Below are positions 1,509-16,750 of a DNA stretch of 27,331 nt, piece after piece. How positions within the stretch are numbered: position 1 is the stretch's first letter; each line of letters begins with the position of its first letter. The notes under the pieces were generated by a model. The model searched no databases and had not been told where the DNA came from. It saw only the letters and a program-made list of their open reading frames with translations. The translations under genes were made by a program, and so were the position numbers. The DNA is taken from positions 1 through 27,331 of the IMG/VR virus record IMGVR_UViG_3300048546_000799, one strand, 5' to 3'. Origin of the DNA: a virus.

Positions 1509-2059
1509 TGGCTGTAGTCCTCAAGAATGGCGCCGTAGATTTATCGATCAACATATACCAACGGCTCCCTGGGGCTTCAGATTCTCTGTCCCGGAGAGCG
1601 CGCTCAGAGATTGAGGACGTGATTGACGATCTGACCGCAGAGCTTCGGGAGTACATCATTGACAATTGGCCGGTCGATACTCGCCGAAGCCAGCAAGCGT
1701 GGTCCCTTCAGTGGGACGAGCCGACGTGGGTGATACGAAATCCGGTTGATTATGCTGAGTATGTACACCCGAAAGATGTGACCCTGGAGAGCTGGACCGG
1801 TGTTGAGATGGAGTCTGAGCGGCTCCTCACGGGAGCGCTTGGCAGGCTGACCAACATCGTCCAGCGCGACAACGTCCGCACTGTTGATTTAGTCATTCAG
1901 AAACAGCAGAATCTTGCTGAGCGTTTAGAGCGCCAAGCCCGAAGGGTGCTGCGCACTGACCTCTTTGCTGCTACGGTGCAGGCATACCGTGACCGCCCTA
2001 GTAGGTTGCGTGAGCGGGAACAATCAGAGCGCGAGCGTCAACGGCTCCGCGGGAGGTAG
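1508..2059 (+). CDS. HK97 gp10-like neck protein, copy 2, with charged C-terminal helix
   Basis: A 183-aa protein whose ATG overlaps the preceding stop (TAATG). Residues about 30-95 hold the gp10-like core: an N-terminal helix (EIEDVIDDLTAELREYI), then P-x-D-T-x-R-S-x-x-AW, V-I-R-N-P and YAEYVHP. Compared with the upstream gene, it lacks the long loop between N and YA. The last roughly 55 residues form a long, highly basic/acidic helix rich in Arg, Glu and Gln, ending in RERERQRLRGR-like sequence, which is unusual for the core family and may contact nucleic acid or the tail tube. The role is inferred from motif pattern and gene order. Confidence 0.55.
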   Translation: MAVVLKNGAVDLSINIYQRLPGASDSLSRRARSEIEDVIDDLTAELREYIIDNWPVDTRRSQQAWSLQWDEPTWVIRNPVDYAEYVHPKDVTLESWTGVEMESERLLTGALGRLTNIVQRDNVRTVDLVIQKQQNLAERLERQARRVLRTDLFAATVQAYRDRPSRLREREQSERERQRLRGR

Positions 2060-2061
2060 AA

Positions 2062-2646
2062 ATGGCTGAGTCTCTCGTCGTGAAGTCACGACTTATGGGT
2101 AAGATCACCCTGGCCGCTCTCAAGGAGGGCGCATTTAACACGAGCACCGGAGCCCTCGAGGCAACCGCTGAGTCCTACGAGATCAAGTTCGAAGAAGGCG
2201 ATCTCAGCATCTCGGCAACGGGCAGGGCCAAGAACATCATTCGTGACCGCTCTGACATCAGTTCCGTCATCCCTGGCGACGAGGAGCCGACCACGATTCA
2301 GTTCTCTGCCTACCTGCGAGACCTGACCGACACCGGCGCGGCCACCCTCAACGATATCGCCATGTGGTTGACTCGTGACCCTTGGACCTCTGGGTTCTCT
2401 GACTACGTCACCACCAATTGGGAAAGCGTCTACAACTCGTCGGCCGGAAGCGATGCCCTGATCAACGGCATTAGCATCAAGTTCGAAATCGACAACCCCG
2501 GCGATGCAACAGATGCCCATATCATGATTGCCAACCAGTGCTTTGGTTCCATGAGTTTGAGCGAGGGTGACCCCGACACAATCACCATCTCTCTCACATG
2601 CACGGACGGCGGGAAAGGGCACCCGACGCCCGTCCCGATTTCTTAG
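2062..2646 (+). CDS. Major tail (tube) protein
   Basis: A 194-aa protein with an excellent ribosome binding site (GGGAGG, 2051-2056) ahead of ATG 2062. It lies directly before the tail-chaperone and tape-measure genes, which is the standard tube-protein position. The sequence is beta-rich with alternating polar/hydrophobic strands (YEIKFEEGDLSISATG near residues 39-54; IQFSAYLRDLTD near 86-97) and a late strand pair (GISIKFEID, TITISLTC). This suits the tail-tube beta-sandwich that stacks into rings around the tape measure. No sheath gene was found nearby, so a non-contractile tail is expected. Confidence is high for virion role and moderate to high for tube identity. Confidence 0.7.
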   Translation: MAESLVVKSRLMGKITLAALKEGAFNTSTGALEATAESYEIKFEEGDLSISATGRAKNIIRDRSDISSVIPGDEEPTTIQFSAYLRDLTDTGAATLNDIAMWLTRDPWTSGFSDYVTTNWESVYNSSAGSDALINGISIKFEIDNPGDATDAHIMIANQCFGSMSLSEGDPDTITISLTCTDGGKGHPTPVPIS

Positions 2647-2661
2647 GGCTGGGTAATTGTT

Positions 2662-2688
2662 TCCCCAGCGACTGGGGAGCACTGGGGA
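2662..2688 (+). promoter_or_regulatory. Hairpin able to mask the tail-chaperone ribosome binding site
   Basis: TCCCCAG (2662-2668) can pair with CTGGGGA at 2672-2678 (loop CGA) or with an identical CTGGGGA at 2682-2688, which carries the GGGGAGA ribosome binding site of the gene at 2693. The two pairings are mutually exclusive, so the leader could switch between an exposed and a masked site. There is no T-run, so it is not a classical terminator. Function is inferred. Confidence 0.4.
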
Positions 2689-2692
2689 GAAC

Positions 2693-3112
2693 ATGAGGGA
2701 ACGTAAGACACGGCGCGAAGTGCCTGAGCACGCCGCGCTTGAGATAGACATTCCGGGACTCGGGGTTCATCAGTTTAGGCTGGTGGACCCCGTCCGCCTT
2801 TTGCGCTACTGCGAGGCCGCGGCGAGGGTTGGCTCATCGTCTCATGAGCAGGCTGCGATATCCTCTGCGGCGGTAGGTTGGTTCTGGGCACACCCTGACG
2901 TTGACCTTGAGGCAGAGCCAGACGACGACCCAACCGTTTATGGCGAGCGGGTTTCTTCTGAGTTGTTTGATGAGGGCTGGTCCTTGGTGCAACTTATGGG
3001 CACGGGCTCTGCTCTAATGCGGGCTGCGCAGGAGTCAATGCCAACCCCCGAGGAGGTGGGCTCGCTCGTGGATTTTATTGCGGCGCGGGCTGGCAGAGCT
3101 GGCAAGCGCTAG
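2693..3112 (+). CDS. Tail assembly chaperone, zero-frame product (lambda G-like)
   Basis: A 139-aa acidic protein starting at ATG 2693, with GGGGAGA just upstream; the in-frame TTG at 2657 has no comparable signal. Position between tube and tape measure is diagnostic of the tail assembly chaperone pair. It begins with a short beta segment (LEIDIPGLGVHQFRLV) followed by helices, and ends in a helical tail rich in Ala, Gly and Arg. In lambda-like phages this protein coats the tape measure and is extended by a programmed -1 frameshift. Here the -1 frame is open from 2962 to 3417, across this gene's stop, as expected. See the separate entry for the extension. Confidence 0.65.
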   Translation: MRERKTRREVPEHAALEIDIPGLGVHQFRLVDPVRLLRYCEAAARVGSSSHEQAAISSAAVGWFWAHPDVDLEAEPDDDPTVYGERVSSELFDEGWSLVQLMGTGSALMRAAQESMPTPEEVGSLVDFIAARAGRAGKR

Positions 3113-15311: not shown

Positions 15312-15770
15312 TCAGTCTTTCTCAAAGAATGGTGAGTGCTGCTGCATCCACTCGTTGTACTTGTCCGCTTCCATGCGCCCTGGGCCGCGCACAGCGGACC
15401 AGTTCGTAGGCCAACCCATCAACCACTCCGCGAAGGCACAGGCAACTCGGCCGCCCAGGGTTGCAGACAGCCCGGCAAGGCTAGTCCTGCCATCCTCTCG
15501 CATAACTCGAGCCGTCCCGGAACACGTTCGAAACAGCGCCTTGCTCGCAAAGTTTCGGTCAGGGTCGCACGTAGGGGTAGGGAAGAGTTGCCTGCCCTCC
15601 TTGCCTGATAGAAACGGGAAGGTCGTTGGTCTTGTATAGCAACGAGACGACCGCATCTTACCCTCCCTTGGCCACCTATCGCAGTAGCCCTGTAATTCGC
15701 CTGTCAAGAGTTGTTGGCTCGTGACCCACCGACCGCTAGCGTGCTCGTACTGGCAGAGTTCCCTAGCCAC
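15312..15770 (-). CDS. Companion protein of the methyltransferase (WPREG / EWLMGWP family), diverged duplicate
   Basis: A 152-aa protein; GTG 15770 overlaps the methyltransferase stop by eight bases. It is clearly homologous to the protein encoded in an alternative frame inside the methyltransferase gene (15783-16307). Shared blocks are W-x-T-x-Q-x-LL-x-G-x-L, RWPREG, R-S-x-x-C, FPTP/LATPT, EWLMGWP, AVRG, and KY-x-EW-x-QQHSP near the end. It has no AdoMet motif I, PCQ or ENV box, so it is not itself a C5 methyltransferase. In the register equivalent to the methyltransferase frame this copy has a stop (15704-15706) and a degraded motif X (GSGQVQ). Selection has therefore kept the alternative frame. 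Function unknown; accessory to methylation or DNA recognition is a guess. Confidence 0.7.
   Translation of the reverse strand: MARELCQYEHASGRWVTSQQLLTGELQGYCDRWPREGKMRSSRCYTRPTTFPFLSGKEGRQLFPTPTCDPDRNFASKALFRTCSGTARVMREDGRTSLAGLSATLGGRVACAFAEWLMGWPTNWSAVRGPGRMEADKYNEWMQQHSPFFEKD
15409..15428. repeat. 20-bp identity between duplicated methyltransferase-tail regions, copy 1
   Basis: GGCCAACCCATCAACCACTC is identical to 15883-15902 and encodes (on the minus strand) the EWLMGWP core. Flanking bases remain similar for roughly 100 bp, showing that the two regions descend from one duplication. Confidence 0.8.
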
Positions 15771-16575
15771 CGTCGCCCCCCATCAGCCGGCCCCAGAGGA
15801 TGGAGAATGCTGCTGCAGCCACTCGTGGTACTTGCCCATTCCCAAGTGCTTTGAGCCGCGCACGGCGGTCCAGCCTGGACTCGGCCAACCCATCAACCAC
15901 TCGACCCACTCGGGGTTCAGCCGGCCACCGATGACACCATTGAGATGGCGCTTGCGCACCTCTGAGGGGCTGCCATCGCACTTTGCGTCGTGGGCAATCG
16001 GCGTCGGAAATGACTCCACCCACCTTCGGCACGATGGCCACTTCTGCATGCCGGGGCTCAACTGGTTGGCGACTGCGGTTGGGGTCGCAAGCCAGAAGCC
16101 AGATCCGTTGGCGGATATGGGGGGCACCGACGTGTCCCGCGCCCAGCACGATCCACTCCGCAGACCACCCTCTCTCGGCCATCGCCCCGAGAATGTCTCC
16201 AAGCCCCCTAGAAGCAAGTTCTGGCGAGTTTTCCACAAAGACGAACCCGGCTCCCACGTCGCCAGCAATTCGCCACATATCCCACCAGAGGCCACTCTTT
16301 TGCCCATGAAGTCCCTCTCCTCTTCCTGCCTTTGAAATGTTCTGACACGGGAACCCCCCTGTCACAATGTCAACCTTGCCCACCCAAGGTTCCGGGTCGA
16401 AGGTTGTGACGTCGTCGTAGATTGGGAAGTCTTCAAGCATGCCGTCGGCCTGCCTGGCCCTCAGCACCTCTTGGCAGAACGGCTCTATCTCGACCGCGGC
16501 CACCGTCTGAAGGCCGAGCAGCCTTGAGGCCAGCAATCCACCCCCAGCCCCAGCAAACAGAGCCAGCTCACGCAT
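15763..16575 (-). CDS. DNA (cytosine-5) methyltransferase
   Basis: A 270-aa protein. ATG 16575 is chosen because the protein then begins directly with motif I; it overlaps the upstream stop. Motifs in order: FAGAGGG (7-13, AdoMet binding), GGFPCQ (73-78, catalytic Cys77), FVENSP (113-118, the E-N pair), RQRIWLL (motif VIII) and LKALGNGQVP (motif X). It transfers a methyl group to C5 of cytosine, probably to shield phage DNA from host restriction. The target-recognition part is short. No cognate restriction enzyme was seen. A second, overlapping reading frame (15783-16307) lies within it, and a diverged copy of that frame follows as the next gene. Confidence 0.88.
   Translation of the reverse strand: MRELALFAGAGGGLLASRLLGLQTVAAVEIEPFCQEVLRARQADGMLEDFPIYDDVTTFDPEPWVGKVDIVTGGFPCQNISKAGRGEGLHGQKSGLWWDMWRIAGDVGAGFVFVENSPELASRGLGDILGAMAERGWSAEWIVLGAGHVGAPHIRQRIWLLACDPNRSRQPVEPRHAEVAIVPKVGGVISDADCPRRKVRWQPLRGAQAPSQWCHRWPAEPRVGRVVDGLAESRLDRRARLKALGNGQVPRVAAAAFSILWGRLMGGDGG
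15783..16307 (-). CDS. Overlapping-frame protein inside the methyltransferase gene (WPREG / EWLMGWP family)
   Basis: A 174-aa reading frame on the same strand as the methyltransferase but shifted by one base. Its ATG (16305-16307) lies within methyltransferase codons 90-91 and is preceded by GGAGAGGGA, a good ribosome binding site. The protein matches the next gene (15312-15770) in at least six blocks: W-x-TRQ-x-LL, RWPREG, LRSG-x-C, ATPTA, EWLMGWP and KYHEWLQQHSP. Since that gene is independently maintained in this frame only, this frame is probably translated too. Part of its ribosome binding site coincides with conserved methyltransferase residues (GRGEG), so chance cannot be fully excluded. 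Function unknown. Confidence 0.55.
   Translation of the reverse strand: MGKRVASGGICGELLATWEPGSSLWKTRQNLLLGGLETFSGRWPREGGLRSGSCWARDTSVPPISANGSGFWLATPTAVANQLSPGMQKWPSCRRWVESFPTPIAHDAKCDGSPSEVRKRHLNGVIGGRLNPEWVEWLMGWPSPGWTAVRGSKHLGMGKYHEWLQQHSPSSGAG
15883..15902. repeat. 20-bp identity between duplicated methyltransferase-tail regions, copy 2
   Basis: Identical to 15409-15428. Here the same DNA encodes methyltransferase residues around VDGLA in one frame and EWLMGWP in the overlapping frame. Confidence 0.8.
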
Positions 16576-16750
16576 CGTTCCGCCTGATGTACGAGGCCGC
16601 GCGCCACAGCCTGTCATAGGCCTGTGTGAGGAGCATCAGCCGGTCAGGGCTGGCCCCGTCCTTTCGAGCCCGCAGCAACTCAGCAAGGACCTCGTCAGAC
16701 CTGAGTTGGTAGTATCGCCTCATCGTCTCGACCACATCGTCTGCGCTCAT
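16568..16750 (-). CDS. Small helical protein, unknown
   Basis: A 60-aa protein. ATG 16750 overlaps the upstream TGA (ATGA); a longer reading from 16792 has no supporting signal. It is helical and Arg-rich (DVVETMRRYYQLRSDEVLAELL, then LLTQAYDRLWRAASYIRR). Its end overlaps the methyltransferase start by eight bases, so the two are coupled. No family recognised; a regulator or accessory of the methyltransferase is possible. Confidence 0.6.
   Translation of the reverse strand: MSADDVVETMRRYYQLRSDEVLAELLRARKDGASPDRLMLLTQAYDRLWRAASYIRRNDA

Follow-up and report, generated by a model that had tools for sequence, protein, structure and literature searches.

Long overlaps between genes on the same strand are thought to be rare and mostly young. 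The window analyzed here, a 27,331-base IMG/VR virus record in which profile searches identified genes for a tail tape measure protein, a terminase, an endolysin, RusA, SSB and a Cas4-type exonuclease, contains a C5-cytosine methyltransferase (MTase) gene across which a second, +1-shifted frame lies open on the same strand. A preliminary description of this DNA had proposed that two proteins are made from this one stretch. The locus thus raises the question of whether the second frame is maintained as a protein-coding sequence and, if so, what its product contributes.

The MTase frame (alpha) matched the PF00145 profile, and motifs I, IV (PCQ), VI (EN), VIII and X, which the preliminary description had named correctly along with the coordinates of the two frames, were all located in frame and intact (Table 1), identifying alpha as a C5-cytosine DNA methyltransferase. 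The open reading frame (ORF) extends from 16617 to 15763 on the minus strand; an upstream ATG at 16617 is a possible start, and the ATG at 16575, already taken as the boundary of the gene, is the start of the family. Alpha has motifs I, IV, VI, VIII and X in common with M.HhaI and the other PF00145 single-chain enzymes but, unlike them, carries no motif IX or recognizable target-recognition domain (TRD) in the same chain, and its PF00145 and M.HhaI matches end after motif VIII. The shifted frame (beta), with its own ATG and GGAGAGGGA upstream, was confirmed at the proposed position. Its product belongs to PHROG 1008 by profile match, as does that of the neighboring gene, beta2 (E 4e-9).

Table 1. 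Features of the overlapping MTase locus in the window
Feature	Position	Strand	Basis
Alpha, C5-cytosine MTase frame; motifs I-VIII and X, without motif IX	15763..16575	(-)	PF00145 E 5.8e-27; phrog_363 E 3.7e-58
Motif I, alpha frame	16566-16537	(-)	Sequence
Motif IV GGFPCQ (catalytic Cys), alpha frame	16342..16359	(-)	Sequence
Motif VI VENS, alpha frame	16236-16225	(-)	Sequence
Motif VIII RQRIW, alpha frame	16099..16113	(-)	Sequence
Motif X KALGNGQVP, alpha frame; overlaps KYHEWLQQHSP of the beta frame (15833-15801)	15826..15852	(-)	Sequence
Beta, +1 ORF of 174 codons, N-terminally shortened; PTP repeats (candidate TRD region) and motif IX-like LNPEWVEWLMGWP	15783..16307	(-)	phrog_1008 E 3.7e-18; z 2.89, 5.01
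GGAGAGGGA, candidate ribosome-binding site ahead of the internal beta start	16312..16320	(-)	Sequence
Part of the MTase gene that encodes the first third of beta in relatives; three stops here, unconstrained	16362..16571	(-)	z about 0
PTPTAVANQ ... FPTPIAHDAK, TRD-type repeats, beta frame; alpha frame unconstrained here in relatives	15981..16094	(-)	Codon shuffling, sequence
RLNPEWVEWLMGWPSPGW, motif IX-like block, beta frame	15870..15923	(-)	Sequence, family alignment
Beta2, stand-alone copy of the beta frame; 7 stops in the former MTase frame	15312..15770	(-)	36% identity to beta, E 2e-29

Occurrence of the second frame and selection on both frames

A database search for EWLMGWP-type proteins with the beta product, a check proposed in the preliminary description, yielded 593 confirmed IMG/VR stretches and 97 phage records, and the beta frame overlapped an MTase in the +1 relation in 79 of the 80 loci kept. 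Scans with P0002 and ArV1-beta as queries recovered hardly any phages beyond these. So that the second frame would not bias the choice of loci, we picked another set of relatives with the MTase frame alone. A +1 match to the beta profile was present in 80 of 80 viral loci and 73 of 80 loci from bacterial genomes in this set; in five of the six loci without any beta match the MTase profile extended only to about motif VIII, and these were single-chain enzymes of the usual type. By their record titles, these genomes include Pseudomonas, Streptomyces, Companilactobacillus, Bacteroidetes, Planctomycetota, Verrucomicrobiota, Spirochaetes, Nitrospirae, Dehalococcoidales and Spirulina. Double coding is thus conserved in phages and in bacteria of many phyla, from Enterobacterales prophages to Streptomyces, Bacteroidota, Planctomycetota and Bacillota; in most nested cases the overlap takes in the whole enzyme gene, and usually only one of the two genes is annotated. 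Recurrence of the arrangement in scores of independent records also led us to reject a frameshift or sequencing error as its source in the window.

Stops in the alternative frame of homologs, to which the preliminary description had drawn attention, were counted in 96 full-length nested genes. There were 4 stops in the +1 frame, compared to 455 expected from shuffling of synonymous MTase codons, and 1497 in the +2 frame of the same genes, compared to 1269 expected. In addition, the real sequence outscored all five of its codon-shuffled versions against the beta profile at every locus with a match (153 loci), with median scores of 312 versus 62 bits in viral loci and 80 versus 26 bits in distant genomes. 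Since the codon-shuffled genes still matched the profile weakly, +1 matches were rejected as stand-alone evidence, and it is the excess over the shuffles that counts. Pairwise shuffle z-scores among close relatives were inflated by shared ancestry, according to the +2 control; weight is therefore placed on the window comparisons at 49% identity, on the stops and on codon freezing.

Synonymous sites, which the preliminary description had singled out for analysis, were indeed conserved. Codons were frozen most strongly at the gene start and in the C-terminal block whose +1 reading gives EWLMGWP, with observed/expected synonymous identities of 0.66/0.34 and 0.63/0.32, respectively. In most relatives the MTase begins with xTG-AAT-GAG; read in the +1 frame this becomes TGA ATG, a stop followed by an ATG for beta that lies 4 nt past the MTase start (ATGAATGAG). 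The codon for Asn-2 of the MTase was AAT in 90 of 90 cases, versus 42% gene-wide. When the beta codons were shuffled, the MTase frame proved to be constrained in every part but the interval from motif VIII to the IX/X block (z 11.7, 9.0, 1.1 and 4.3), and in that interval constraint in the relatives lay only on the beta frame. Codon shuffling in both directions, stops and codon freezing thus show purifying selection in both frames, in a conserved frame relation. Together with the fixed ATG at +4, these results support the proposal of two proteins from one stretch and take it further, in that the second frame of the relatives usually spans the whole MTase gene.

The predicted product of the second frame

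The beta family combines variable PTPxAxD-type repeats with a nearly invariant LNPxWVEWLMGWPxGW block. Pfam and NCBIfam searches of beta and a PDB sequence search with the beta profile gave nothing useful, and an AlphaFold model of beta alone was poor (pLDDT 60), with no PDB match in a fold search. Similarly, no significant direct profile match linked beta to canonical MTases. The link passes through the single-chain members among the relatives, which occur in several layouts. In the nested layout, that of the window, motif X is in the MTase frame and beta is without it. In the split layout (ArV1, Dylan, phiBT1 and several Streptomyces), the MTase frame stops after motif VIII, and the beta frame carries EWLMG and, beyond it, motif X. 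In the single-chain layout (Babsiella gp54, Fancypants gp73, Nimbo gp63, Rabbitrun gp78 and PFR1 gp45), an EWMMG block and GNGVxP or a similar sequence lie in frame with motifs I-VIII, in most cases preceded by PTP repeats. The PF00145 alignment reaches 312 of 324 in PFR1 gp45 and in a Nocardiopsis protein, and the beta block matched the single-chain family alignment with an E value of 9.2e-11. In the AlphaFold model of a single-chain member (355 aa, pTM 0.73), the catalytic domain and C-terminal part were confident, the repeats disordered and the TRD part of low confidence; the model matched M.HhaI along its length with a domain shift (E 2.5e-14, TM 0.54-0.58). Because the beta module is found in frame in the single-chain relatives and the model of such a protein matches M.HhaI, beta most likely supplies the TRD and motif IX.

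We therefore favor, with a probability of roughly 0.7, a C5-cytosine methyltransferase of two subunits whose genes occupy different frames of one stretch of DNA. Translation of the MTase frame would give an alpha chain comprising the catalytic domain with motifs I-VIII and X, and the +1 frame, from its own start, a beta chain bearing the target-recognition region and motif IX. Each chain would be initiated separately on one mRNA, and the two would assemble into a single enzyme that methylates cytosine in a specific sequence.

Alternatively, the +1 frame might encode a real, selected protein that was overprinted on the MTase gene and acts as something other than its subunit, such as an MTase regulator or an anti-restriction factor. 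Such a protein would be in keeping with the failure of beta alone to give a structural match and with the persistence of a stand-alone copy without its MTase frame; moreover, what the comparisons show is selection on the frame rather than its function. We consider this unlikely, however, given that single-chain MTases contain this module, placed after motif VIII and before motif X, that in the split ones it carries motif X, and that motif IX and a constrained TRD region are missing from the MTase frame. With a programmed +1 frameshift close to motif VIII, one long chain, I-VIII-TRD-IX, would be made in place of two separately initiated ones. The invariably +1 relation fits such a mechanism, and the shift would restore the single-chain order; but a fusion needs neither the constraint on the +1 frame well upstream of motif VIII nor the fixed ATG at +4 that are both seen in the nested relatives, where, in addition, motif X remains in the MTase frame. 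Since constraint on the +1 frame of the relatives already holds upstream of motif VIII and its own ATG is retained, we regard a frameshift as improbable.

Other overlaps and rearrangements were seen among the relatives. Over motifs VI-VIII of five single-chain phage MTases (loci L281, L282, L286, L288 and L289) there is a +1 ORF containing SWxTxQ and SETWP-type blocks, with Babsiella gp55 annotated at this place, even though these enzymes carry the TRD and motif IX in their main frame; constraint on the VI-VIII +1 ORF in the single-chain set L291-L310 was not above the +2 control. In phage phi-BT1 (L285), gp9.1 (1218-1718) is recorded as "DNA methylase may be inactive," and an unannotated +1 frame, open from 1336 for 310 codons, holds EWLMG and motif X, such that this methylase may be complete in two chains. 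In the viral contigs L114-L119 the MTase frame stops after motif VIII and a separate downstream stretch contains the beta block and motif X in different frames, as if one insert had interrupted both frames. Three loci (L080, L266 and L328) have chimeric ORFs that pass from the N-terminal part of the MTase into the beta frame or the reverse; these are either natural frame swaps or assembly errors. Finally, the Escherichia coli PT62 prophage (L321, NZ_CP090448) encodes at 2043-3029 a second cytosine MTase, of lambdoid type, over which the +1 frame is open for ~300 codons and contains GWPTPVANDS and QLNPAHSRWLMGLP. Two-frame coding may therefore extend to lambdoid Dcm-type enzymes.

The window copy and its neighboring gene

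In the window itself, openness of the +1 frame was weak evidence and was dropped as an argument for this copy alone: about two stops are expected by synonymous shuffling of this GC-rich gene, giving a P of about 0.06. The window was next compared with 61 relatives at a mean MTase identity of 49%, the first third of the gene serving as an internal negative. Similarity in the +1 frame beyond that imposed by the MTase had a mean z of 0.11 in the first third, 2.89 in the middle third and 5.01 in the last. Sharing the third position of the MTase codons, the +2 frame was in modest excess as well (1.5 and 3.4); the +1 excess was larger. The preliminary description had placed the joint conservation of both frames in the last third, which holds but is too narrow, as the middle third shows it as well. 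Given the three stops and the z of 0.11 in the first third and the clear excess further on, the window beta has lost its first third and would start internally near 16307, as had been proposed.

The shortening, together with the stand-alone copy next door, might be taken to mean that the window beta, functional in relatives, is a decaying relic whose role the neighbor has taken over. The first third would fit such a history, but the remaining 174 codons are open and similar to relatives beyond MTase constraint, retain all of the invariant residues in the family block LNPEWVEWLMGWP and have an ATG with a ribosome-site-like stretch, making decay very improbable for this copy. If the second frame simply reflected GC-rich codon use and conservation of the MTase, and no protein were made from it, the non-significant openness of the window frame and the weak matches of shuffled relatives would be accounted for, but this reading is strongly disfavored, to the point of being hardly credible, by the deficit of stops, the margin over shuffles at all 153 matched loci and the frozen synonymous codons.

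The sequence blocks that the preliminary description had noted in both the +1 frame and the neighboring gene reflect a real relationship, with beta and beta2 (P0001 versus P0003) sharing 36% identity over 155 aa (E 2e-29). The first 8 nt of beta2 overlap the end of the MTase gene. A motif IX/X residue survives at 15450-15310 in the former MTase frame of beta2 (E 3e-4), and the beta frame alone stayed open (P 0.003, base shuffling). The relatives found with beta2 all overlap an MTase, except for a second contig of the same phage (L093, L323). Judging from its sequence, beta2 is a decayed duplicate in which the second frame survives and the MTase frame was lost. That loss suggests that beta acts as a separate protein, and beta2 may be a second, alternative beta chain. 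A further step, in which one catalytic chain would be served by two interchangeable recognition chains, nested beta1 and stand-alone beta2, so that two sequences are methylated, is put forward tentatively, with the odds somewhat against it. If true, recognition chains would be swapped on one catalytic subunit, much like HsdS in Type I systems.

Comparison with known two-polypeptide methyltransferases

If beta does provide target recognition, the specificity subunit has gone unannotated in a very common class of phage and prophage MTases, and some MTases recorded as possibly inactive, such as phiBT1 gp9.1, may be complete. On the wider, tentative reading given above, very many enzymes annotated as single genes would be half-enzymes with their specificity in an unannotated frame. 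The coexistence of nested, split, single-chain and duplicated versions also offers a tractable system for the coevolution of two frames in one DNA. In the open-licence literature we found no description of an embedded methyltransferase gene and no account of the prevalence of the fully nested two-frame form or of a duplicated recognition chain.

In Dylan (gp7/gp6), ArV1 (067a/067b) and Shelly (gp55/gp56, "g55 internal gene"), pairs of methyltransferase ORFs that overlap in this +1 relation are already annotated. These actinophage and Paenibacillus phage pairs match phrog_363 and phrog_1008, and their records do not state a joint function; the Dylan and ArV1 beta frames overlap the MTase partially and carry motif X, unlike the window beta. 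The out-of-frame HNH insert in phage methylases (PMC11855218) is an inserted homing endonuclease and different from beta.

Natural C5-cytosine methyltransferases of two polypeptides are already known, and the small chain of one of them, M.EcoHK31I, likewise comes from a second frame within the gene for the large chain. The window pair follows the two-polypeptide plan in its motifs, with I-VIII and X on one polypeptide and IX, assigned via the single-chain relatives, on the other. M.EcoHK31I (YGGCCR) has been called naturally split (PMC3439449) and shows the same division, motif IX alone being on the small chain and motifs I-VIII and X on the large one (PMC3404938). Its TRD was assigned to the large chain, whereas the constrained variable region of the window pair is in the second frame. 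M.AquI is divided between motifs VIII and IX, its small chain comprising the distal TRD and motifs IX-X (PMC3404938), and resembles the split relatives in the position of the break; by contrast, motif X of the window is on the large chain, and the window genes overlap across the whole beta ORF. The nested two-frame enzyme proposed here would therefore be a variant of the known two-polypeptide C5-methyltransferases.
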